Below are positions 1,185-44,656 of a stretch of DNA of 64,000 bases, in pieces (within the stretch, counting starts at the first letter, position 1; every line of letters starts with the position of its first letter). The notes below the pieces were generated by a model. The model made no database searches, was not told where the DNA came from, and worked only from the letters and a program-made list of their open reading frames with translations. Source of the DNA: Dioscorea cayenensis subsp. rotundata (Eukaryota > Streptophyta > Magnoliopsida > Dioscoreales > Dioscoreaceae); the NCBI RefSeq assembly GCF_009730915.1, contig NC_052494.1:744001-808000 (forward strand), read 5' to 3'. The translations under genes and the position numbers were made by a program.

Positions 1185-4100
1185 TCAAAGCTCGACGTTC
1201 ATCCCCACCTTCAACAAACGATGGTGAGGAATTGTGAAAACTTCATTTTGTTGTCTTGTGTTCCTCTTCAAACAGTTGTAACCATAGTCGATAATAATCG
1301 TCTTCAACCAATTTGAATCACGTCTTGCGACTACTTCACTCTCACCGAACAAATGAATTACTCCTTTCTTCATCTCCCTCTCGACAACCTCCAAATCCTC
1401 ATCGATCTGTGGATTCATATTAATAGTCTCTTGTTTTATGAAGTCCTTGAGTCCTTGCACCAAAAGAAACTCAAATGTCTCCTGCTCATTGCTTCTCAAT
1501 TCTTTGTATCCATACCTTGCGATACACCGGAAAAGGAAGAGCTCACGGGGTCCGACACGCCTGAAAAGAAATCGCTCATCGCTTGGTACTCTACTTATTG
1601 GCAATGACTTCACCGAGACGAAGACAAGCACTGAGTGTAATGCAGGGACATTAGCAATGTAGTGGTTGAAGATTGGAGGTATTCCCTTGACAAGTTCTGA
1701 GTAGAAGAAGCCAAAACCGGGGATTCTTTGCAAGCTAGGATCAGAGACAATCTCTGTCACCTTTTCGGTCGGTACTCTGTTTTCCATCTCGTACATGTAC
1801 TTCATCCGGTAGACATAGTTCCATATGAGCATTACGGCGACTAGAAAGACTGCAAATCCTATTGGAATGTAGCCTCCATCGATAAACTTGTAAAGCACTG
1901 AGCTCAAGTAGACAAGCTCCATGGATCCAAACACAAGGACGTAAAGAATGACATTAATGATGCTTAGTTTCCATATCATGAGCATAATAAGCACCATGTA
2001 TCCTGAAGTCAGGGTCATCACAAACACCACTGCAATCCCTGCATATATAAAAAGCAGATGTATATGTTTATGTTTAGATTTTGTTTAAGTGACTTGATTT
2101 GCTTGAAGGTTTCAAAGGATGCAAACCGTAAGCATTGCCAATCTTTACAGTGTTCTTGAACCCAAGAGTGATCAAAACACACATTATCATTATAATGTAG
2201 TTCATCTCTGGTATATATACTTGGCCTTCATACTTGGTTGATGTCTGAACTATCTTCACTCTAGGAAAGCACCCTAAGTACAGAGACTGCTGAATGATGG
2301 AGAATGTACCAGAGATCATTGCTTGGCTAGCGATGATTGCCGCCAAGACAGACACAACAAACATAGGCCAGTACAAAGACTCTGCATGATAACCAAACAA
2401 CTAAATCACCCTGCAAAAACAATTAGAAGATGAAAGAGAGAAGGGAGCCATGAGCATATACTCGTATATACATACTAGGTATGGACTTGTAGAAGATACT
2501 AGCAACATCACCCATATTCTCCCTTAGATAAGAGGCTTGGCCAGTATATGCAAAGATAAGGGAAGGATAAACAAGGCCACACATGCTGACTTGAATGGAC
2601 TTTACTGAGAAATGACCAACATCAGCAAACAATGCCTCCACCCCTTATGCATCCAAATTCAATAACGTTAGCAAACTTAATATGATTTTGGGGTTGAATT
2701 ACTAATATGATCAAAATTATACCGGTGACGCAAAGAACAACGCCACCAAGAGAAACCCAAGCAGCCTTCCCATTCCTTCTGAAGTAATCAACAATGTACA
2801 TTGGATTGACAGCCTTGAACACCCAAGGATCGTACTTGAAAAAGTTGAAGATGCCTATGCCTGTAATGCTGATAAACCATACGGTGATGATAGGAGCAAA
2901 GGAGTAGCCCACCTTGTCAGTACCAAAACGTTGTAACATGAATAGCAAGATCAATATGGCAACTGATATCCAAGCCATTTTATCTGCAGAGAGATTTGAA
3001 GAAGAATGACTCATGAGCGATCAAACAAAGATCAACTCAGTACCATATTATCCATACTTCCATACCTTCGTTCAAGGTACTGCCAGCCTGCTGTAAACCA
3101 GACACAGCTGATAGAACTGTCAAAGTTTTCAATGAAATGATATATGAGTGAACAAGTGTCTAGTAGGAAAGGATTAATATCAGCAAAATCTTATATTTCA
3201 CTAAATGTAAATAAAACCATCTAAGAAAAATTCACATGGCATGTGAAACTACAAAGATCAAGGATACAAAGTGGTAATAAAATAGAAAAGGCACACGAGA
3301 GCAAACAGAACAAACACAAATCAAACTACATCTAAAGTAGGCAACATTTAGACAGCCGACAAAAAATGAAGGCAGGACAAACTAATTGAGTTCATCATCA
3401 TCACTTATCTCCTCCCTCCACATGCAAGGCACTGCAATATTTTATTTAGATAATCTAGCCAAAATACCTGAAAACAAACATTTGCAACATCTGCAAGCCA
3501 TGAATGTGAACATATGGTAGTCTTGACCATGGATTTCTAAGTTTAAGTACATATTTGTTTATAAAAATCTTACATTTTCAGCTAAAGAAATTAATTCAAG
3601 TGGGAAGTGTAGCGAATGGCTTCTGTTCCACTTGTATCAAAATAAACACAATAATTTTTAAAAGCTCTCTCTTTTATAAAATGCATCATAATGATACAAC
3701 TAACAAAAAAGAAATCTAAAAAAATAAGTAACATTGAATCAAAAATCTACAAAAATAAAATAAAATTGGGGACTAAAAATATAATTAAATTATGAATAAG
3801 ACATATATACCTGAAATACAAGGAGTGAGAATTCCATCCCCAATCACCATGGCAGTCCCAAGCATGGTGAAAATCAAAAGGAAGTATTTGGCGAACATTG
3901 TGCTCTCTAGAGCTGTCTTTATCTTTGAAGCTCTCTCAGAACGATTGTTTGGCAACTCTAGTTTAAAGTTAGAAACCTCTCCATCTTCTGCTTGTTGGCT
4001 TGGGATCAAGCCCACTTCACTGTGTCTACATATCAATGAGTATAATGCAAATGTGCCACCTAATGCCAATGAAAACTCATGTCTTTAATACCGCATTAAT

Positions 4101-15648: not shown

Positions 15649-18600
15649 TTATTGGCCTTGCTTTCTTTCTGCAAGAATTATAAAATCAATAGATAAGAAA
15701 AAGGGTGTCAGTGTGTCACTAATTAGCCGCTAGAACTTGTATATCTTGAGATACAGATTACAGTTTTAGATAAAGAAGAATGTGGAAATCCAAACAATAA
15801 GTAGGGGTTGGAGGATTTCCCTTTGTTAATTCAAGAATCTAGAAAGCATTAACTTCGGCAAGCATGATTTCAAAACCATTTTTGTTAATCAAAACAAGGC
15901 TTTTGCTGTTACCTCTTTGTATCCATGATTTACAGTCTGCTTCCTGGATGTGACACACACGTCTCACTAACAATTCATCGATTTTACACGACCGAGACAG
16001 TATAGCACTAGAGAACCCGATTTTCCCTCCTTGATTTTGTTCATCCTGAGAATTACATGACACATCAGCACTCGGTATTTGAATTTATACTGTGAAAAAG
16101 AATGAAACAAGTAAATTATACCAGAATGCTGTGCTTAAATGAGACCGAATCTCTCCCGTATTGATCTCTAGACAATCTATTAGGGCGGTAGAGATCATCG
16201 GCATTAAATGAGTCTTGCTGTTCTAACTGTGTCCAGTGTCTTAACATAGCATTCCTTGAAAGCTCAGATGGCTTTTGAACTCTGGAATTGACTTTGTCTT
16301 TGTAATCTTGTGAGATGCTTAATGATTCCAATTGATTGGTAATATTGTTTCTCAAGCCACATGCATGATCTTCTCTTTGTTTCTTTGCCCATGCAAAGCC
16401 GCTAGACATAGAAACTCGTAAAGGTCCAGAGTCCGACGGATCTTCTTGGGAGAGATTCTTGATGTGTTGATGATCACACCGGAGATTAACTACTGAGGCC
16501 GGCTGTGTATCTACAGAAGCTCTGGATTGGATATTTAGTCTAGGGAGATCTTTATCATAGATTCCGCGACTTTTGATTCTTGGCCCCTGTAAAAATCATG
16601 GAGTCCTTTGAATCATGCTGAAGTTAAAGTATCTAATATCGAAAAATAAATACGATACCTCATATTGATAAGAAAATTCACACAGGCTGTTTGCTTCTCT
16701 TGAAGCTCTGGGTGCTATTGAAGGTTTTCTTGTTGCTTCTAACTCAAGATGCCTTTTGCTGCCTACCTTTTTCCTGTATCACAAGAATAGCAGCATTACT
16801 GATACTGATAAGCACATAATAGATTTCTTTCTCTTTGTTCTTTGAATACAAGATCTTTAGACAGAGAGCATATACAACTTCAAAATATCACTTGAATCAT
16901 TCTTTGAGGTATGAACAGTTTTACTCCATTAAGGTTTCTGATATATATTAGGGTCTGATTAATCTTTCATCAATACAAAGGAAAGAGTATGCTGGCTTAC
17001 CTGTGTGACTCACGTCTTTTAACATCGATCTCTTTAGTAGGTGGGTAGCGAGGTAAACTTGATGGTTCACAAGCTTGAGGCTTTGTTCTAAAATACTACA
17101 GCACAACAGAACCCATCAATAATGAGAATTAAGTTTCATTACACTTCTTTTCCAAAGTTCTATGGACTTAAAAACATAGTTTATAACAAGTGTCTCACAT
17201 TGTTTCACCTTTGAAAACATTCGAAGAGGATTAAAAATTTTCTAAAAAAAAATTTACCTCAGAGGCTAGAGCAGTTGATGCGGAGCCACGCTTGTAAGGT
17301 TCAACAGAGAGAAAAGTTGATAACAAGCTCAATGCACTAGACGATAAGTTCCGAAAATATTCTCCGAGGCAATTCTCATAATTATGCTGAGGCCTGAAGA
17401 GTGTTGTATGGGGTAGTTTTGACTTCTTCCAGTATTCATCCGGTGGTGATCCACACAGCTTGAAAATTTTATGCAGTTGTTCTACCTGACGTTAGTGCAA
17501 AAGAGGTTGAGCATCTATACATATTCAAAACATAGTGAAAAAAACTTATTGTGAATATATACCTCTGTTCTTCCCTGTAAAATAGGCCTACCGAGTAGCA
17601 TTTCCCCGAAAACACAACCAACACTCCATAAATCCACACTTGCTCCATACTCCATTGAACCGAGGAGAAGCTCCGGGGGGCGATACCATAAAGTCACAAC
17701 ACGACAAGTTAACGGTTGTTTGCGCTCAGGATTCAAGAAGTTTGCCAAACCAAAGTCTGCAACTTTGACAATTCCCTCTTCACTCACAAGAAGATTTGCG
17801 CATTTGATGTCTCTATGCATTACGCCGAGCGAATGGCAATGTTCAAGTCCAGATAATATCTGTTGCATGTAACACTTGACCTGCAACTCACATTCATAAG
17901 ATACATGCTGTCTATCAGAAATGAGATTCATGTTGATTATAAAAATATGGGCAAACCTGAGCTTCGGAGAATTGGACAGAAGGAGCTGATACTAGCCCTG
18001 CAAGATCATGTTCCATGTACTCGAAAACTAGATACATGTTACATGAGAGATGAGATGTAATTAATCCTTCCAATTTTATAACATTTGGATGGTCAAGTCT
18101 GCGAAGGATCTGTATTTCCCGTGCCATAAAACGAACACTTTCTGGCTCAAAGTTATCGAATCGAACCTTCTTCAGAGCAACAATTTTTCCGGTGTCCAAA
18201 TTGCGCGCTTTAAACACACTGCTGTATGTACCTTGTCCAATCTAAGGGACAAATGAATGCAATACAATCTAGTCAGAAACCAGTCTACAGAACCAAATGA
18301 ACAATAAAATTTCTGATCAAATGATCTTGAAACATCCACATTTGAACTGATACTTCCAACCTTATCTTCTCATGAAAAGGAAAAATAAATAAATTATTAT
18401 ATTGAAGAAGATAAAGAATTGGCATGCATGCAAAGATTACCCCATGAAGATGTGCAGTTTGATCCACAGAAGCAATGCTGGAAAACAAAAAATAATCAAT
18501 GCATAACACCTCATTCTGATATATATATTGTCTGAAAACTTATGATGATTCTGAAGCCAAAACTCTCATAAATCATGCCCTAATTAAGCCATGAAAAGTA

Positions 18601-24439: not shown

Positions 24440-25867
24440 TATATAATTAGTATTTTCGCTTATGAAATAAATTTTTATTATTTTCCATGCTAAAATTAAC
24501 ATAAACTAATTTATAATAAGTACTAAGCAAAGCAATATAATTTTATAAAATAATTAAAAATGTCAAATAAATATACTAAATGTTAGCAATGAAGTTTTAA
24601 CTTTAACAATTCATATGATTATTATTCATAGTATGAGACTACTAACGTATTGGTGATTTGGTATTTATATGAATTAAGTATTATTTAATAAAATGAAATA
24701 TAAACTAGATTAGATATATACACACACTTTAGAGTGGTTAAATGAATCAAAATTAAGTTAATTAGACACTGATCATGAATTAAGATAAAAATAATATACA
24801 TGTATAGATTGCATATGGCCTAAAATTATTTGTAATTGGGTATAATTTTATTTTATTTTTCAAGTAATCCAATTGGAATTCATAGTAAAATTACATACAA
24901 AAGAAAAAATACTATAATTTTATATCATTTAATTTGTAATTAATAGGTAATTAATTTTTCATTAAGCGATACAATTTCAACTATACTTATAATAGTTATA
25001 GATTTTTCATGCAGAAAACTAGCTATAACTCAGTTGAATTAGGGCACTTAGTACTTACGAGTTTGTGGTTTATTTGTTTTTAAAATAAAATATAAATATA
25101 AAAATCATCATGTAATTTTTTTTAAAGAAAACTCACATATACTTTTACCCAATTGATATATAATTTTTTTAATTTAATTTTTAATAAATAAAATTGATGG
25201 ATATGTTTACACAGATAAAAATTATTAGTCATCACTCATCAGAGGTCATTAGTAGAATTTTTAGAAATATAAATTTATGTAAATTTAGAATAAATTAATC
25301 ATTGTTTAATATTTTATTCGTTTCCTTTATTTTGACATGGAGTATACAAACATCAATCTTATGTTTGGGGGATATAATTGTAATTTCAATGCCCAAGGGT
25401 ATATTTGTAATTGTGTGCTTCAAGAGTTATAACAGTGGAGTTATATAAGCACAAAAATTACATTTATACCCTTTTATAATTTGAAAATACAACAGACATA
25501 TGAGTAGTATATATGTCATTCAAATGTTTCTCTAGGGGTACAAAAGTAATTTTTCTCATGGAAACATTAAATCACATCAAACTTTAAAAAAAGGGAAATG
25601 ATATATGTAAATTTTTTTTCTATAAAAGTATATTAGTAATTTTACATAAAGCAAAATTACTTACCTATCCCCATTGAAACATTGATAATTACCAATGTAT
25701 ATAGATAACATACATTATCCTGTGAAGGGGTATATTTGTACTTTAACATTGACAGGGGTATATAAGTAATTTGACTGACAGAGTTCACTGATTCCTCATT
25801 CTCTTCGCGCGCGCGCGCTCTTTGAAGTTTGGGAGCTGTTCTTGGTCTCGCCGGAGAATCGAAGGAG

Positions 25868-28502
25868 ATGGAGAACGAGATGGAGTGGTTTACTTGGGAT
25901 TTGGCCGGGCTTTACAAGAAGGACGGATCACCGGCGACGATTTTCACAGAGACCTCAGAATTTCATCCGGATTCGTTGCCATTGTTGAGGTTTTTATCTT
26001 TTGATTCGTTGTTTTTTTAATTTCTTTTTTGTGATTTGAATCTAGGGTTTTCTGTTGGTTTCCAGAGTTTCTTTTTCTTTTTCTTTTCTAATTGATTGTG
26101 TTCTTGGTTGTTTCTTTGCATTTTCTAGTGCTAATTACTAAAAAAAAAACAGATCTTTTGTTCTTTTTTTTCTCAAAGCGTTCGTTTATTGCGATTTGTG
26201 TTAATTTCTAGGGTTTTTGTTACCTGATTGATGAAATCCTTGGTTGTTTCTTTGGATGTTGTTTTTTGATTCTTTCTAGGACTTGTATATATTTGTTAAA
26301 AAGCAAATCTTGTGGTTCTGTTTCTTAGATTTTAATTTTTCTAATTGATGCTTTCTTTGTGGTTCTTTTTCTATTCTTGGTTTGTTTTCTTGCTAGGGTT
26401 TGTGCAATCTTGAGAAAAAAAATCACATCTTTGATCCAAGTTTTAATCTTCATTCTCTGAGCCTTGTTCCTTTTTATTCCAATTATATCCTTTTTCAATT
26501 GGAATTTATGTAATATGGAAGTCAATTCTCTTGATGAAATTTCCGTTCTTTGGGAAAAATGTTCAGTGGCACAAGTGAACGTGAGGCTCAACGCTATCTT
26601 CAGGTTTGGCACAACAGTTCTTTTTATCTTAATATTAATTTCTTTTATTTATTGTTCTTATGAAAAAAATAATTTATCATGATTTATAATTTATGTCTGG
26701 AAAATGAAATCTAGATTCAGAGCTGTATGTTATTTTGCATTTAGTTGTTTTCAATGCTTGTTGTGTCTTGAAATAATCATTGTTGCTATAAAATTGATAG
26801 TTTCGTATTCATCACAGTATTTCTTTTCATTTTGAAAAATTTACCATGAATTGTAGTTGTTCTTGATGTTGATTATGTAATAACTAAATCATTCTGTGTT
26901 CATTGTCTCAGCAGAATCATTGTTGCCATTAAATTAATACTTTGTATTCGTCATAGTAATCTTATCATTTTGAAAAATTTACCATGAATTGTAGTTGTTC
27001 TTGATGTTGATTATGTAATAACCAAATCATTCTGTGTTCATTATCTCAGATGAATCATTGTTGCCATTAATGTAATAGTTTGTATTTGTCACAGTATTCT
27101 TATCATTTTGAAACATTTACTATAACTCATATTGAAATCTTCAATGGAAATCAGAGCTGCAATCTATCAGGCATGTAGTTGTTTCTTGATGTTGACTGTT
27201 GAGTATGTAATAACCAACAATTATTCTCTGTTCATTATCTCAGCAGAATCATTGTTGCCATGAAAATAATAATTCCTATTTGTTGTAATATTTCTTATCC
27301 TCCTGAGAAACTTACCATAGTTTTGATCTTCAATGAAAATATAATCCAGAACACCAATCGGTAATTCTTTATTCCTTCTGGGTTGCACACTAAATTGCAT
27401 TCTAATTGTTCTCAATATTGATTGTGTAACAACTAACAAGTATCAACTCTGTTCAGTTGTTTCGTCTTAATGTTTGTTATCCTTATGGAATAATTACCAT
27501 GCAACCTAATCTATATCTCATCTTGCATAGTTAGTCGTTCTTTATGTTGATGAATAATAACTGACAATTGTTGGCTCTGTTCAGGATCTCGGAAAAATTA
27601 TTGCTGCCATGGTAGCAGAAAAAATTGCTCCTCAAAACAAATTGTATATTTGGCGAAGAAATTTATGGGCCATCAACATTGTTCTTCATTCGTATTTCGC
27701 AACTTCTGCATCACCTGTTTCCTTTGGTGAAGTACCACTTTTCCCTTCCCTTGATGCCGAAATTTATCCGGGCAGAAAACGTTCGATGCTCTTCTGGTAT
27801 TTTTCTGGATGTGGTCGTTGGATCGATGACATTGAACGATTAGTGTTCCAAGGACATCCTTCATCACCAGAAAGATTACCCTTTCTTTTCTTTATTCGTT
27901 ATACTGCAAAGGTAATAACACATCAGACCTTGCAACTGTCCAATTATTTCAAGCACAAGCTCTGAAATGCACTAAATGGAATTTAGTTCATTGATACAAT
28001 GCGGTTGTTTGAACTTTGATGTGATTATTATATTTCTCTGAAGGTGTGGAATATTTACCAACGCACACGCTTCGAATTGATGAAGACCGAAATTCTTAGG
28101 TCTTGTTCTTTATCGACACTTGCACGTTCGACGGCAACCTCAGATAACTCGCATAGATCTCCTCGATCACCATTCGAAACAAATAAACAATTTGCAGGTA
28201 TCATATGTTTTTTTAATGGTTTTTAGTTTAGAGATAACCATTGAAAGTTCTTTTTTTTTCCCCAATTTCTGTTACTTGTTTATGTAGAATTTCATTCATG
28301 TTTTTCCCTATGCAGAACTTGTGGATGTGTCAGATATTATATCTGTGAGTAACATTTTGTTGAAATTATTATGCAAAGATTAAACTTTAACATCCTTCAG
28401 CAATATATATATATATATATATATATGTAAATATGTTCTTAGGATTGATAAGTGTTTCTTGTTTCCTTGCATTTGCAGCTGTATGAAAGTATGAAGATTT
28501 GA
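25868..28502 (+). CDS. Unrecognised plant protein, tandem copy A (230 aa, 6 exons)
   Basis: Exons: 25868-25989, 26567-26603, 27585-27911, 28044-28197, 28316-28344, 28479-28502. Every phase matches and the sum is 693 nt. The frame of the 37-nt exon 2 is fixed by phase and gives GTSEREAQRYLQ. The protein starts MENEMEWFTWDLAGLY. A central part (about residues 54-165) has IWRRNLWAINIVL and VFQGHPSSPERLP, and the tail is Ser/Thr-rich and ends LYESMKI. No signal peptide and no clear membrane helix are visible. I recognise no domain. It is kept intact in both copies with identical exon phases, which argues for a real, selected gene. The start is the first ATG after a GC-rich leader ('cgcgcgcgcgc' near 25807). 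Confidence 0.75.
26770..27584 (+). repeat. Decayed tandem repeats in intron 2 of copy A, related to the start of exon 3
   Basis: Units of about 135-190 bases recur (matching points near 26777, 26912, 27052 and 27245). Each carries a phrase like 'ttctgtgttcattatctcag' then 'aatcattgttgccat'. The real acceptor and exon 3 start ('ctctgttcag', 'gatctcggaaaa', 'attgctgccatg') look like the last member of the series. Confidence 0.7.
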
Positions 28503-30093
28503 GAGAAAGTTGGTTTTCTGCAGATTATCAAGTAATCAACTTAATTTTCTGCAAATCTATGTGTTGATAAATAAGAATTTTGCATTCAATTTTTGTGCAT
28601 AATAATGCATGCATGCATGCATAATAATAATACAGTTGGTATTCTCATGTTGTATATATCCTTTGCTTAAAATGAATTTGATTTACAATTTGTATTAGTA
28701 CTTCATAAAGAAAGAATACAATATTTGGCCAAGCTTATCTATCTACAACAAGCACATTAATCCAATTATTTGATTTTTGATTGCCAATTAGGTTTATTTT
28801 GACTTCATTGATGAGTTCAATTGGAGTTTAATTGGCTTGATTTCATTAAGGATTCTTCTATATGATATTTTATGTAAATGAAATAGTGTATATAATTTTG
28901 TGAAGGTAAAATCAAGTTCTTATAAATTTTAGACACATAACATGAATTAAGATAAAAATAATATAGTTGAAAAGAATGCGTGTAGCATGAAATTATTGTA
29001 ATTCGGTTTAATTTCAATTATTTATTTATTTTTTTTTCGGGTAATTTAATTAGAATTCACAGTAAAATTACATTCAAGGAAAAAAATACTATAATTTTAG
29101 ATTATTTAATTTGATTTTTTCATTAAGTGATGCAATTTCAGCTATATTTGTAATAATTATTTACATATAAATAGTATTATTTTTATTAATTTCATGTAGA
29201 AAACTAGCCATAATTAAGTTGAATTAGGGCACTTAGCATTTATTTGTCTGTGGTTTATCTATTTATATATATATATATATATATGAATATTAAATTCATC
29301 TGGTAAATTTTCTTTTTAGGGGTTGTTTGGTTCCCCGTATTTCAAATTACAGTGTAAGTCAAATTACAGTGTAAGTCAAATTACTGTATTTTAACTTACA
29401 TGTAGAAAACTAGCCATAATTAAGAAAACTCACAAACTCATAAACTCATATATACTTTTACCCAACTTATTTAAAATACATGAATTATTTTTAAGATTTA
29501 AATTTTTTTTAATGATATCATGGTTTTCTTTTACTCAATTTGACTTTTTTATTAAAAAAAGATTTAATAACATAATTTTATTTATTTAATTTTTCATAAA
29601 TAAAAATTGATGGCTATGTTCAAGAGGAGTCATACAAATACAAAATTACTTTTTCAACCCTATGAAAAACATTAAATTACATATATACCCTTCCATAATT
29701 TGAAGATACAACAGACATTTGGTAGTATATATATGTGATTTAATGTTTCACTGTAGGGGTACAAAAGTAATTTTCTACATGGAAACATTAAATCACATCA
29801 AAAACTTCAAAAAAAATTACAGGGACTGATATATATAAATTATTTTTTCTATATGAGTATATTAGTAATTTTACATAGAACAAAATTACTTATCTACCCC
29901 ACTGAAACATTTATAATTACCAATATTTATCTCTTACATACACCCTCGTGTAAAGGGGTATATTTGTACTTTAACATTGATAGGGGTATATAAGTAATTT
30001 GACTGACAGAGTCCACTGGTTTCTCATTCTCTTCGCGCGCTCGCGCTTTGAAGTTTGGTAGCTGGTCTTGGTCTCGCCGGAGAATCGGAGAAG

Positions 30094-32688
30094 ATGGAGA
30101 ACGAGATGGAGTGGTTTACGTGGGATTTGGCCGGGCTTTACGAGAAGGACGGGTCACCGGCGACGATTTTCACAGAGACCTCCGAATTTCATCCGGATTC
30201 GTTGCCATTGTTGAGGTTTTTATCTTTTGATTCGTTGTTTTTTTTCATTTCTTTTTTCTGTTTTGAATCTAGGGTTTGTTGTTGGTTTCCAGAGTTTCTT
30301 TTTCTTTTTCTTTTCTAATTGATGATGTTCTTATTTGTTTCTTTGCATCTTCTTGTGTTAATTACTAAAAAAAATAAGAACTTTTGTTCTTTTTTTGTAG
30401 AAGCGTTCGTTCATGTTGATTTCTAGGGTTTTTGTTACCTGATTGATGAAATTCTTGGTTGTTTCTTTGGATGCTGTTTTTTGATTCTTTCTAGGACTTG
30501 TATTTATTTCTTAAAAAGCAAACCTTGTGCTTCTGTTTCTTAGATTTTAGTTTTTCTAATTGATGCTTTCTTTGGGGTTCTTTTTCTATTCTTGGTTTGT
30601 TTTCTTGCTAGGGTTTGTGCAATCTTGAGAAAAAAAAAATCACATCTTTGATCCAAGTTTTAATCTTTCATTCTCTGAGTCTTGTTCCTTTTTAATGCAA
30701 TTATATACTTTTTCAATTGGAATTTGTATAATATGGAAGGCAATTCTCTTGATGAAATTTTCATTCTTTGGGACAAATGTTCAGCGGCACAAGTGAACGT
30801 GAGGCTCATCGCTACCTTCAGGTTTGGCACAACAGCTCTTTTTATCTTAATATTTATTTCTTTTATTTCTTGTTCTTATGAAAATACTAATCATGATTTA
30901 TAATTTATGTCTGTAAAATATAATCTAGATCATCAACATGTAAATCTTTAATGCTTCAGAGCTGTATGTTATCTTGCATTTAGTTGTTTTCGATGCTGGT
31001 TATGTAATAACTAACAATTGTTGTGCCTTGAAATAATCCTTGTTGCCGTAAAATTCATAGTTCGTATTCATCACAGTATTTCTTATCATTTTGAAAAATT
31101 TACCATGACTTGTAGTTGTTCTTGATGTTGATTATGTAATAACCAACAATCATTCTCTGTTCATTATCTCAGCAGAATCATTGTTGCCATAAAATTAATA
31201 GTTCGTATTCATCACAGTAATCTTATCATTTTGAAAAATTTACCATGAATTGTAGTTGTTCTTGATGTTGATTATGTAATAACTAAATCATTCTGTGTTC
31301 ATTATCTCAGCAGAATCATTGTTGTCATGAAATTAATAGTTTGTATTGTTCACAGTATTCATATCTTTCTGAAAAATTTACCATAACTTATATTGAAATC
31401 TTCAATGGAAATCAGAGCTGCAATCTATCAGGCATGTAGTTGTTCTTGATGTTGATTATGTAATAACCAACAATTGTTGTCTGTGTATTATCTCAGCAGA
31501 ATCATTGTGGCCATGAAAATAATAATTCCTATTTGTTGTAATATTTCTTACCCTCCTGAAAAACTTACCATAGTTTAGATCTTCAGTGAAAATGAAATCT
31601 AGAACACCAATCCGTAATTCTTTATTCTTTCAGAATCATTGTTAATTCTTTTAACAATTATCATCTTAATATTTGTTATCCTAATGGAAGAATTTCTACA
31701 ATTTATATCTGCAGTTAAAATCATATGCAGAACACTAATCTATAACTCATCTTGCATACTTAATTGTTCATTATGTTGTTGAGTAATAACTGACAATTGT
31801 TAGCTCTGTTCAGGATCTCGGAAAAATCACTGCAGCCATGGAAGCAGAAAAAATTGCTCCTCATCACAAATGGTATATTTGGCGAAGAAATTTATGGGCT
31901 ATCAACATTGTTCTTCGTTCGTATTTGGCAACTTTGGCGAGTTCTTCTGTATCACCTGTTTTCTGTCGCGAAGTACCATTTTTCCCTTCCCTTGGTGCCG
32001 AATTTACTTTGCTCGGGCAACCTGATTTGTTCGTCGGGTATTTGACTCTATGTGCTTATTGGATCCATGACGTTGAACTATTAGTGTTCCAAGGACATCC
32101 TTCATCACCAGAAAGATTACCCCATCTTTTCCTTACTCGTTATACTGCAAAGGTAATAACACATCAGATCTTGCCATTGGTCATCCATTTCAACCACAAG
32201 CTCTGAAATGGAATAACTGGAATTAGTTCATTGATACAATGCAGTTGTTTGAACTTTGATGTGATTATTATCTTTCTTTGAAGGTGTGGAATATTTACCA
32301 ACGAATTGAATCGATGAAGACGGACAGTCTTATGGCTGGTTCTTTATTGCCACTTACACTTCCGACGGCAACCTCAAGTAATTCTCCTCAATCTCCTCAA
32401 ACAGCATTCGGAACTAGTGAACAAGTCACAGGTATTATGTGTTCTTAATGGTTTGTAGTTTAGCGATGACTAGTTAAAGATTTTTCTTTCCCAATTTTAG
32501 TTACTTGTTTAGGTAGAATTTCATTCTTGTTTTTTCCTATGCAGATAGTGTGGATGAACCGGATATTACATCTGTGAGTAACATTTAAACTTTAACATCC
32601 TTTAGAAATTTATATATATATATATCATGATTGATAACTGTTTTTTGTTTCATTGCATTTGCAGATGTTAGAAAGTTTAAAGCTTTGA
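30094..32688 (+). CDS. Unrecognised plant protein, tandem copy B (232 aa, 6 exons)
   Basis: Exons: 30094-30215, 30785-30821, 31814-32152, 32284-32431, 32545-32573, 32665-32688. The phases match and the sum is 699 nt. It is paralogous to the gene at 25868: same exon count, phases and start (MENEMEWFTWDLAGLY), with IWRRNLWAINIVL and VFQGHPSSPERLP conserved. Exon 3 is four codons longer than in A, and exon 4 two codons shorter. The C terminus is MLESLKL. The stretch around residues 115-128 differs completely from A because compensating indels shift its frame. The promoter repeats the same short phrases as A ('ggggtatatttgtactttaa', 'ggggtatataagtaatttga'). Function unknown; a small soluble protein is likely. 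Confidence 0.76.
30960..31813 (+). repeat. Decayed tandem repeats in intron 2 of copy B
   Basis: Same arrangement as in copy A. Units are recognised by 'tctcagcagaatcattgt' near 31167, 31307 and 31493, and a shorter remnant near 31632. The array therefore predates the segmental duplication. Confidence 0.7.
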
Positions 32689-33325
32689 GAGATGGTATTC
32701 TGCAGATTATCTAGTTATCAACTTAATTTCCTCCTGCAGATCTATGTGTTGATAAATAAGAATTTGGATTCATCCTTTGTGCATACATATGGTTTGAGCT
32801 GGTGGTTTTCCATGAACCCTTCCGAACCAGGGCTGCTGCAACTTGATACACATGAAATTTAAAACAATGTCTTCAATTCAATTTTATTTTGACAGCTTTA
32901 TGTTGTATATATCCTTTGTTTTTACCCATTTAAAATACTATACTGCAGACACTATTCCATTTGCCATCAATGGCAACAAATGAATAAAAGAAGAGAAAAT
33001 TCTAATTTTAGTTTTTTACATGGCAGCTTCCCATTTTCTTTATTCTTAATATAAATTTGATTTACAATTTGCATTTACTTCATAAATAGAGAATAAAATA
33101 TTTGGCCAAGCCTATCCACAACACAGGTACACAAATCCAATTATTGATCAACTCTGCCACCAAAGACTTTTCAACAAGACTTTGTGAGCTTGATTGTAGA
33201 GACAGCGTATTTTGATTTCATGGATAAGTTTAATTGCCTAGTTTTCTCAAGAGTTCTTGACTCTGATATTTATGTAAATGAAATAATTTCTCTAATTTTG
33301 TAAATGTAAAATCAAGTTTATAAAC

Positions 33326-41911: not shown

Positions 41912-44656
41912 TTAAACCAAAGGTGCACCAACACTTCCCGGTGGGCACCGTGGTCTTCGGCATCGTCTTGTTGTCCTTCCCCACCCTACGATGCTCTTAT
42001 CATCGTCCACAGGCTTGGCATTCTTTGGCTCTGATACTGGCTCCACTGCAGGCAAACTTCTAGGCCGTCCTCTTCCCCTTGTTTGCGCCTTTCTCTTTGT
42101 CGGACTTGCCTGAGACCAAGGTCCACCAGCAGACCTTGCCAACCCTTCAATGGTTTTCATGTCTTCGATAACTTCATGCCTTGATAATGTTGCGAGGCCC
42201 GGCAATATATCTTTCTGAAAGTCTCTTTTCTGTCGCCTCTTCCTTGTCGAGCCTCGTCGAGGCTTTGTCAGTAGTAGCAAAGCAACCGAACCCTTCCGTT
42301 CTTCTTCTTGGTCGTCTTGTCCCTGGGAATGACACTGTAACTCTTCCACCTTCATCTCTTCAAGCTTCAATGTCATCGATTCGAATAGATCAAGCCCATC
42401 ATCATCTAATGATTCAGAGCCAAGATAGTCTTCCCCCTTCAGCTCCTTCTCCATGTCGGATGACAACACGACGTCTGCAAACCAACTCAATGCATCAGAT
42501 TCAGTTACCAGAGTCTTGTGGCATGTAAGTTTGTCAGCATTGTTGAATGTGTCCTGTGAAATGGCGAAAATGCTCTCTGCTGCTTCTCTGATGCATTGTT
42601 CATGCAAGTTCTCAGTTTTGTTCAAACAGTCCGCTTTGAAAGTGTAATCTATTTCTGCAGATTCATCATCTGCCTGACAAGTGACTGGTGCTTCCAAATC
42701 AATATTTAGCATGATTTTCCGTGGAGAACCCAAGGAATTTAGATCTATTTGATTCCTAGAGCTTTTACTTCCAGAGGTTCTTTCAAACCGAATCCCCGCC
42801 CCCTCATTGCACTTCACATTATCAGTCAAAAACCGGGTCTGAATGTCACTCTGCTTGAATGTCTCAGCAAAAGTAAACCCAAGAATTGTTTTACCAGACA
42901 GAGAATTCGATGCCTCATCCATTTCCAAAGTTTGTTGTAATTCCTGCTGACTAGACGTGAAAAGGCCCTTACCATTATTCGGTTTTCCCTCAAATCCTGA
43001 AGAAGTTATAGCACAGTTAGCCAGCAGCTGAGTATAGCTCTGCGCAGCATTTCTTTCACAAATTGGTTTCTTTCTGAGCCAAGGGATTCCTCCTGATGAT
43101 TCCTCGTTTTTCATCGAAGTATCTTGTTTGGTGGCGAAGCCATCAACAATGTCATTTGTACATGCTTGGTTCAGATTCAAAGCTTTGGCGGACTTAACAT
43201 CAATGCAGTGCAAACTCTTAAAATATTTTGACGATCTGTGACCTTCGGAGGCCCCAAAAGCAGAACTACTATGATTGCTGTTTTGGTTTGGCTTATCAGA
43301 GATGAACGATGTGTGGTTGGAGCTATTGTGATTGAACTGCAAATTCACTGTTGAAGGTTTATTAAAGCAAGGAAGTGCTTGAACTGCAATTGGTATGTGG
43401 CTTATTTTATTTGACGGCTTTCTCCAAGATGAATCCAGTGGAGAATGACTCCCATTTGTTCGATTTAGCTTCAGTTCTACTGCTTCAGAGACTATCGGTG
43501 CTTTCTCATTGTAAAGAGGCAGTACGGAAGAATTGAGACGGTAATGACTTCGCCCTGCAAATTGAGACAAATAAAAGTTATTGGATTCATTTGATCCCAC
43601 AAACAAGTAAACATATTCACACTTTTGAAGAATTTTTAAGTCTTACCAGAATCTTTTCCCAAGAGAGGCAATTCCTTTGAAGAACATTCTGCGTCCTTGT
43701 CTCTTTGATGGCTTCGGGCAGCTGTCTCTGTTTGCAGAGGCAACTTGTTCTCTCGAATAACTTCACAGCCAGTTCCCGTGCTGAAAATGAAGGTGGAAGC
43801 AGATCCTATTGCTCTGTCGGAGCATTCTTTTGCCGGCTCATTCAAGTCAGCCAAGTCACAGTTCTTTAAGCGTGAATCCAATTTCTGACTATTTTCTCTG
43901 CAACCAGAATTCTCACCAGTTCCCAGAGTAAGTTTCAGATCATTCCCAGGTTGCCTAGTTGCAGCAAATCCCGTTTCATTATCAATATACACATCAGCCG
44001 GGAGCTCAAGGTCAAGCATTTTCCGGGGAAACTGGTTAGACTTGGACTTTGAAACCTCATCATCTTTTCGAACCTCCATTTTCAACTGTACTTCGGCAAG
44101 ATTGAACACTGCTTTGATTCTCATTTAGAAAGTTTAAGGGCACATTCCCAAAAGACAAATGAGATGCACTCAATTTGTTCTCATTTTCTCCTGGTGGTGC
44201 TTGAGATAAAAAAGAACTTGTTTGTGATGTGTACAACAAATCTTTTGGCAAACAAAATCTATACAACTCTTTCCTTTTAAGCTCATCCATTAAATTCTTC
44301 TGTGTTCTGTAAAGACGGTGGAGTTCATAGACCTATCATAGAAACGTATCGTCATGATCTTCTTATTAGTACAACAATATCACACATTGTATGTAACATC
44401 AAACTCGAATGAAACAGTAACATCGACATACCTGTTTCCGGAATATAGCTTCATGTTCAAGCATTGTCCGCTTCAACATCTCTTTATCGTATTCTGAATA
44501 TCCTAAAACTGTCTTCAGCATGACTTCATTATAGGCATGCCCGTTCCGAGCTTTTCCATCGCAAAAAAGCGACCAACTAACATTTCGGTCGTCATCTTGT
44601 CCCCTCATCGGATTATACCCTGGCAGGTAACTTTTACACTGATATTTCGCTCCCAT
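41912..44656 (-). CDS. DUF863 family protein (about 850 aa), carries a +1 frameshift in exon 2
   Basis: Exons on the minus strand: 44656-44432, 44332-43647, 43554-41912. The start MGAKYQCKSYLPGY, the block YDKEMLKRTMLEHEAIFRKQ, then VYELHRLYRTQKNLMDELKR and RKMLDLELPADVYID are DUF863 hallmarks. The C terminus is basic (PRRGSTRKRRQKRDF, GWGRTTRRCRR) and suggests nuclear localisation. The molecular role is unknown. Exon 2 is 686 nt, but phase at both ends needs 685 (mod 3). The frame changes within ENGGSKR, at an A-run (T-run 44065-44068 on the plus strand). Upstream and downstream of it both frames keep family similarity. As written, translation would stop at 44060. Either a base-call error or a recent null allele. 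Confidence 0.85.

Follow-up and report, generated by a model that had tools for sequence, protein, structure and literature searches.

Two tandem genes on a Dioscorea contig as probable NUP58 derivatives that lack FG repeats and are likely to be coding and diverging

Duplicated units and gene models

The window, that is, the whole stretch of 64,000 bases of plant-type DNA that was analysed, corresponds to positions 744001-808000 of contig C24 (1,002,403 bases) within a genome of 584,211,761 bases in 2249 contigs. It contains two directly repeated units, each of which carries a gene with six predicted exons; coordinates are those of the window.

24770..28925, plus strand: duplication unit A, co-linear with 28937-33325
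25868..25989, plus strand: A exon 1; its product aligns from L15 onwards with the beginning of the helical region in NUP58
26518..26556, plus strand: segment of A intron 1 that, in another frame, may be what is left of the missing 5' part of exon 2 of NUP58
26567..26603, plus strand: A exon 2 (37 nt), putative 3' remnant of NUP58 exon 2
27585..27911, plus strand: A exon 3, aligning co-linearly with exon 3 of NUP58
28044..28197, plus strand: A exon 4; its start is the same junction as that of NUP58 exon 4
28316..28344, plus strand: A exon 5 (29 nt), predicted from splice sites and the comparison of the copies
28479..28502, plus strand: A exon 6 (24 nt) with stop, predicted
28937..33325, plus strand: duplication unit B, defined by co-linear repeat pairs and the unit alignment
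30094..30215, plus strand: B exon 1, from the gene model and the NUP58 match
30727..30774, plus strand: segment of B intron 1 that is probably what is left of the missing 5' part of exon 2 of NUP58
30785..30821, plus strand: B exon 2 (37 nt), gene model
31814..32152, plus strand: B exon 3, containing a stretch of excess amino acid change between SYL and LVFQGHP
32284..32431, plus strand: B exon 4, gene model
32545..32573, plus strand: B exon 5 (29 nt), predicted
32665..32688, plus strand: B exon 6 (24 nt) with stop, predicted

Unit A was tied to unit B by numerous co-linear repeat pairs with a spacing of 4.17-4.24 kb, and the two units were 84% identical over 3959 ungapped aligned columns, confirming the head-to-tail duplication that had been reported in a preliminary description of this DNA. 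The duplication had also been said to include the promoter, introns and 3' flank. The conservation was uneven: at A 25070-25469 the 5' flanks differed by 43-49% per 100-bp window and were barely homologous. The outer flanks differed more than the introns, by 0.13-0.21 per window at the 5' end (24770-25069) and by 0.16-0.36 at the 3' end (28570 onwards).

Both genes had GT-AG introns, equal phases and open frames, of 230 aa in A and 232 aa in B, in agreement with the earlier account of an intact pair. The exon lengths were 122/37/327/154/29/24 nt in A and 122/37/339/148/29/24 nt in B, so that the very short exons were reproduced in both models, those of 29 and 24 nt as predictions. The only indels in the coding alignment were of 12 nt and 6 nt, both multiples of three.

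Several other features of the window were recorded. Intron 2 of both genes contains 138-bp tandem repeats (2.5 copies), at 26775-27120 and 31035-31384. An 84-bp piece of unit B (29317-29400) belongs to a dispersed repeat with at least 38 genome matches (38 of the 41 listed) at 90-100% identity, as determined from 40 scored candidates out of 427 with a query that ended at 29400. On either side of this piece is a copy of a 24-bp sequence (29195-29218 and 29401-29424), to which a single stretch of unit A (25010-25028) is similar. The window contained no tRNA and gave no Rfam match at the gathering score. Ten neighbouring ORFs were scanned, of which six were without a family; the following family matches were obtained.

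1185-2084, minus strand: K+ transporter (K_trans)
17515-17991, minus strand: protein kinase
41912-44124, minus strand: DUF863 plant protein

Relationship to NUP58

A phmmer search of the PDB sequences at E<=10 gave a single match, chain I of 9sob, which is Arabidopsis NUP58; the E values were 1.6e-8 for B, 0.0097 for A and 5.2e-9 for a profile of both. The 9sob entry is presented in PMC12626886 as a modelled Arabidopsis nuclear pore. The match was co-linear and in two pieces, with profile positions 15-46 on chain positions 1-32 and 42-184 on 57-202. Taken by itself, the first of these pieces was weak (5.5 bits). Local alignment of each copy with each piece was accompanied by 2000 shuffles for each of the four comparisons, none of which reached the observed score. 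Identical residues were present in A, B and Arabidopsis NUP58 at 48 of the 160 aligned columns.

The canonical FG-type NUP58 gene of the host was located on contig C15 by a genome search with the larger Arabidopsis piece. Its exon 1 (exon ends were read by eye) codes for a Q-rich segment that contains FG and is followed by LCTKDG..HPDSQKLMLQIQ; the product of exon 2 is a coil of approximately 38 residues that ends in EASRIIQ; exon 3 begins with ELGG and finishes with AAK; and exon 4 begins with VENLHQYIESM and continues into FG motifs. Two junctions fall at the same places in A and B: exon 2/3, which is RIIQ|ELGG in the host gene versus EAQRYLQ|DLGK or EAHRYLQ|DLGK in the pair, and exon 3/4, which is AAK|VENLHQ versus TAK|VWNIYQ. 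Since these junctions coincide, exon 2 of A and B resembles the last 12 residues of NUP58 exon 2, and the 37-nt exon looks like a 3' remnant of it.

Immediately upstream of exon 2, intron 1 reads in another frame as EVNSLDEISVLWE in A and YNMEGNSLDEIFILWD in B; the paralogous gene C, listed below, has YKDESRSLDEFSCLYD. Shuffled introns reached the match to exon 2 of gene C in 3/300 cases for B and 15/300 for A, and the match to NUP58 exon 2 in 10/300 and 158/300 cases, respectively. Because of the last of these values the A relic was weak on its own. By this comparison, intron 1 of B probably, and that of A possibly, carries a relic of the remainder of NUP58 exon 2. A complete coil exon overlooked in intron 1 was considered and rejected, since the frames hold stops and just a short relic was seen.

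Compared with NUP58, both products retain the beginning of the helical region and of exon 4, the end of exon 2 and the greater part of the helical portion encoded by exon 3. The flanking FG-repeat segments are absent (one FG dipeptide per product, at non-matching sites, as counted by eye), as are approximately 25 residues of the first coiled-coil segment, which is incomplete, the long exon 3 loop and two short pieces near the end of NUP58 exon 3.

No Pfam family was matched at E<=10 by the product of either A or B. Searches with B gave nothing useful in PHROGs and one match only in NCBIfam (E 0.034, far below its cut-off), and a scan of IMG/VR with two N-terminal patterns gave three matching stretches, none of which encoded a relative. 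A structure model of exon 3 based on two sequences had a pLDDT of 46, and Foldseek found no match to it in the PDB. When the window was searched with helical pieces, no convincing NUP58-like piece was found beyond the A/B pair. Profile and structure searches had been proposed beforehand; Pfam and the exon 3 Foldseek search were empty, and the PDB sequence search led to NUP58. That match and the two exon junctions in common with the host gene do not bear out the assignment of the pair to an unrecognised family; it is very likely that the pair arose by local tandem duplication of a NUP58-derived gene. The case illustrates why a Pfam domain search turns up nothing for A and B.

Three further NUP58-like loci, genes C, D and E, were found on contig C24; coordinates are those of the contig.

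407.7-409.4 kb, minus strand: gene C, NUP58-like
from 403.99 kb: gene E, NUP58-like, stop-free in the exons examined
from 396.7 kb (L037:706-1990): gene D, adjoining gene E and interrupted in exon 1 by an in-frame TGA

All three are, like A and B, related to NUP58. Genes D and E start in the same way as A and B (ME.E...GL[F/Y]..DGSPAT) and look short, whereas gene C differs from A and B in its longer exons 2 and 3, which are like those of canonical NUP58; the in-frame stop is present in D and in neither A nor B. Identity to exon 3 of B was 32% for canonical NUP58, 26% for C, 23% for E and 21% for D. No match at the DNA level was found between the A/B duplication and the loci L036-L039, among which L037 and L038 contain the NUP58-like genes. 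Beyond exon 1 fragments, the genome gave only weak matches on other contigs (E above 2) when it was queried with B, with E and with C at E<=10. As the search with B missed C, D, E and canonical NUP58, more distant members may exist.

Dispersed fragments of the pair were also detected. A 790-bp piece comprising the end of intron 1, exon 2 and the start of intron 2 has two copies on contig C1, which differed by 4.1 and 5.4% from B versus 8.9 and 10.6% from A, A and B themselves differing by 7.7% in this piece. Both copies have indels in exon 2 and one is also without the acceptor AG; A and B are intact there. These B-type fragments (L026:3773-4615 and L027:4401-5240) belong to a repeat that spans 4.9 kb or more and is 94% alike between the two places; at both, one side of the repeat is bounded by exactly 1000 consecutive N. 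Exon 1 fragments of approximately 70-100 bp are present on contigs C5 and C1732 (L024:4855-4954 and L025:4485-4555). They lie approximately 440-470 bp from the motif TTGGTGTAGTG, which we take to resemble the end of a CACTA transposon; the other transposon end was not found. Capture of gene fragments by a transposon is a possible origin of these two pieces.

Divergence between the two copies

Over the 228 codons compared, the NG86 method gave a dN of 0.170 and a dS of 0.153 (omega approximately 1.1; bootstrap range 0.73-1.93 with 500 replicates), and the whole-gene pN/pS of 1.08 was inside the neutral range of 0.57-1.32. The retention of coding capacity had been attributed beforehand to selection, with a dN/dS well below 1 as the expected sign. 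Such a ratio was not observed for the whole gene, and the claim holds for exons 1 and 2 only, where dN was 0.016 and dS 0.175 (Fisher p 0.004; this and the other codon-level Fisher p values are uncorrected and come from many tests). Uniform neutral change reproduced this N-terminal constraint in 3/2000 simulations. In exons 3-6 the NG86 dN was at or above dS: the values were 0.194 and 0.085 for exon 3 and 0.257 and 0.257 for exon 4, for which YN00 gave 0.213 and 0.468. Clustering of nonsynonymous change as strong as that observed arose under uniform neutral change in 1/2000 simulations.

Purifying constraint on the N-terminal 53 codons is well supported by these results. Beyond these codons the data support either relaxed constraint or diversification, whereas for positive selection proper they are no more than suggestive. 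An asymmetry between the copies was also considered. B matched Arabidopsis NUP58 at 10 sites and A at 1 (p 0.012); comparison of exon 3 with four host relatives gave 8 sites against 8, with 20 uninformative, and the idea that A is the fast copy was rejected, no asymmetry being claimed. Likewise rejected was the view that gene conversion alone produced the pattern, since exons alternate with introns over distances of a few hundred bases.

On the reading that we consider somewhat more likely than not, A and B are NUP58 derivatives in tandem that lack FG repeats and are probably still coding and diverging. The two C1 fragments, with indels in exon 2 where A and B have none, count in favour of this reading. 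Coding function in itself, judged from these sequence comparisons, is likely for both. A stronger version, in which both genes are coding and exons 3-6 are under positive selection through an arms race or partner switching, is a tentative but serious alternative. Nonsynonymous differences in exons 3-6 (0.194) exceeded differences in introns 2-5 (0.106) with an odds ratio of 2.03 (Fisher p 1.1e-5; synonymous 0.136), but the introns are an imperfect yardstick that may understate the neutral level, because the outer flanks diverge more than they do. The stretch SYF..LVFQGHP had a pN of 0.287 and a pS of 0.090 (p 0.013), with 18/13/5 differences by codon position; however, it was picked after the fact, and in a scan that allowed for this choice the strongest window of nonsynonymous over synonymous change was equalled under uniform neutral change in 96/2000 simulations, which is borderline. 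In exons 4-6 the pS of 0.224 was close to the pN of 0.235, and synonymous sites also exceeded the introns (p 0.026). Furthermore, only two sequences were compared.

It is unlikely that A and B are a recently silenced pseudogene pair of a NUP58 derivative with frames left open by chance. The whole-gene dN/dS near 1, which had been named beforehand as evidence against functional genes, is consistent with such a pair, as are the nearly equal differences at the three codon positions in exons 4-6 (18/15/13) and the in-frame stop in a C24 relative, gene D. The division between exons 1-2 and the remaining exons argues against it, and so does the simulated decay: with neutral change at intron rates, the start, the frame, the absence of stops and the 20 splice bases were all kept in 0.14-0.23% of 20000 runs (a proportion of 0.0014-0.0023). 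That the only two coding indels preserve the frame also speaks against a plain pseudogene pair. An error at the 3' end of the six-exon model, with the protein stopping soon after exon 4 and exons 5 and 6 non-coding, is improbable too. In its favour, divergence is greatest in exons 5 and 6 (identity 0.72 and 0.75), and an unspliced intron 4 would close the frame within approximately 10 codons in both copies; against it, both copies preserve the splice dinucleotides and an open frame up to the stop.

Possible role and comparison with known NUP58 systems

If A and B are coding and diverging derivatives of NUP58, the acceptor of exon 2 would have shifted towards the 3' side with the loss of coil residues, a step suggested by the apparent rest of that exon lying out of frame just upstream. 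Such a shift in an old exon is a possible origin of very short exons. Both genes would still yield protein, with purifying selection on the N-terminal 53 codons and with exon 3-6 residues that have diverged between the copies faster than the introns. The shortened helical part might still dock on a NUP58 partner, for example NUP54 or NUP62, without adding FG repeats, in which case A and B would be competing or regulatory subunits and not barrier subunits, and the copies could drift apart in partner preference. Docking on a NUP58 partner of this kind is conceivable but doubtful as a mechanism; the internal deletions in A and B would disturb the coiled coil. Alternatively, the short FG-less form may retain just a non-pore role.

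More speculative still is the proposal that contig C24 is home to a group of mini-NUP58 genes that lack FG segments and are specific to this lineage (A, B and E, possibly C, and the broken D), which might act as competing or regulatory central-channel subunits under diversifying selection. With a constrained N terminus, a changing core and no FG segments, A and B could provide a natural test of the partner-binding parts of NUP58.

Among the papers listed for NUP58 and plant nucleoporin duplication, pseudogenes, positive selection and Dioscorea, no such paralogues were mentioned in the titles or abstract openings. McDonald-Kreitman tests in Drosophila are reported to indicate positive selection for nine nucleoporin frames, and the Drosophila Nup58 promoter to gather indels fast (PMC10192361). 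In the pore channel, NUP58 assembles with NUP54 and NUP62 into a complex of coiled coils; of the three, the helical region of Nup58 is described as the least conserved between fungi and animals (PMC6371224). Arabidopsis NUP58 (TCU1, At4g37130) is described as a single-copy, 513-aa FG-nucleoporin for which two-hybrid assays gave binding to components of SCF and to further nuclear proteins (PMC3695937).

The helical region of A and B is co-linear with that of the Arabidopsis protein and of the host NUP58 on C15, and the exon 2/3 and 3/4 junctions are equal to those of the host gene. A and B differ from NUP58 in being shorter and present in two copies, with one FG dipeptide each, and in having 12 instead of approximately 38 residues in exon 2. 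They resemble the mammalian Nup58/Nup45 system in that a shorter form exists; Nup45 lacks the FG parts. In the rat, Nup45 is a proteolytic product of Nup58 (PMC6371224). Unlike A and B, the mammalian short form is a product of the same gene and not a separate paralogue.
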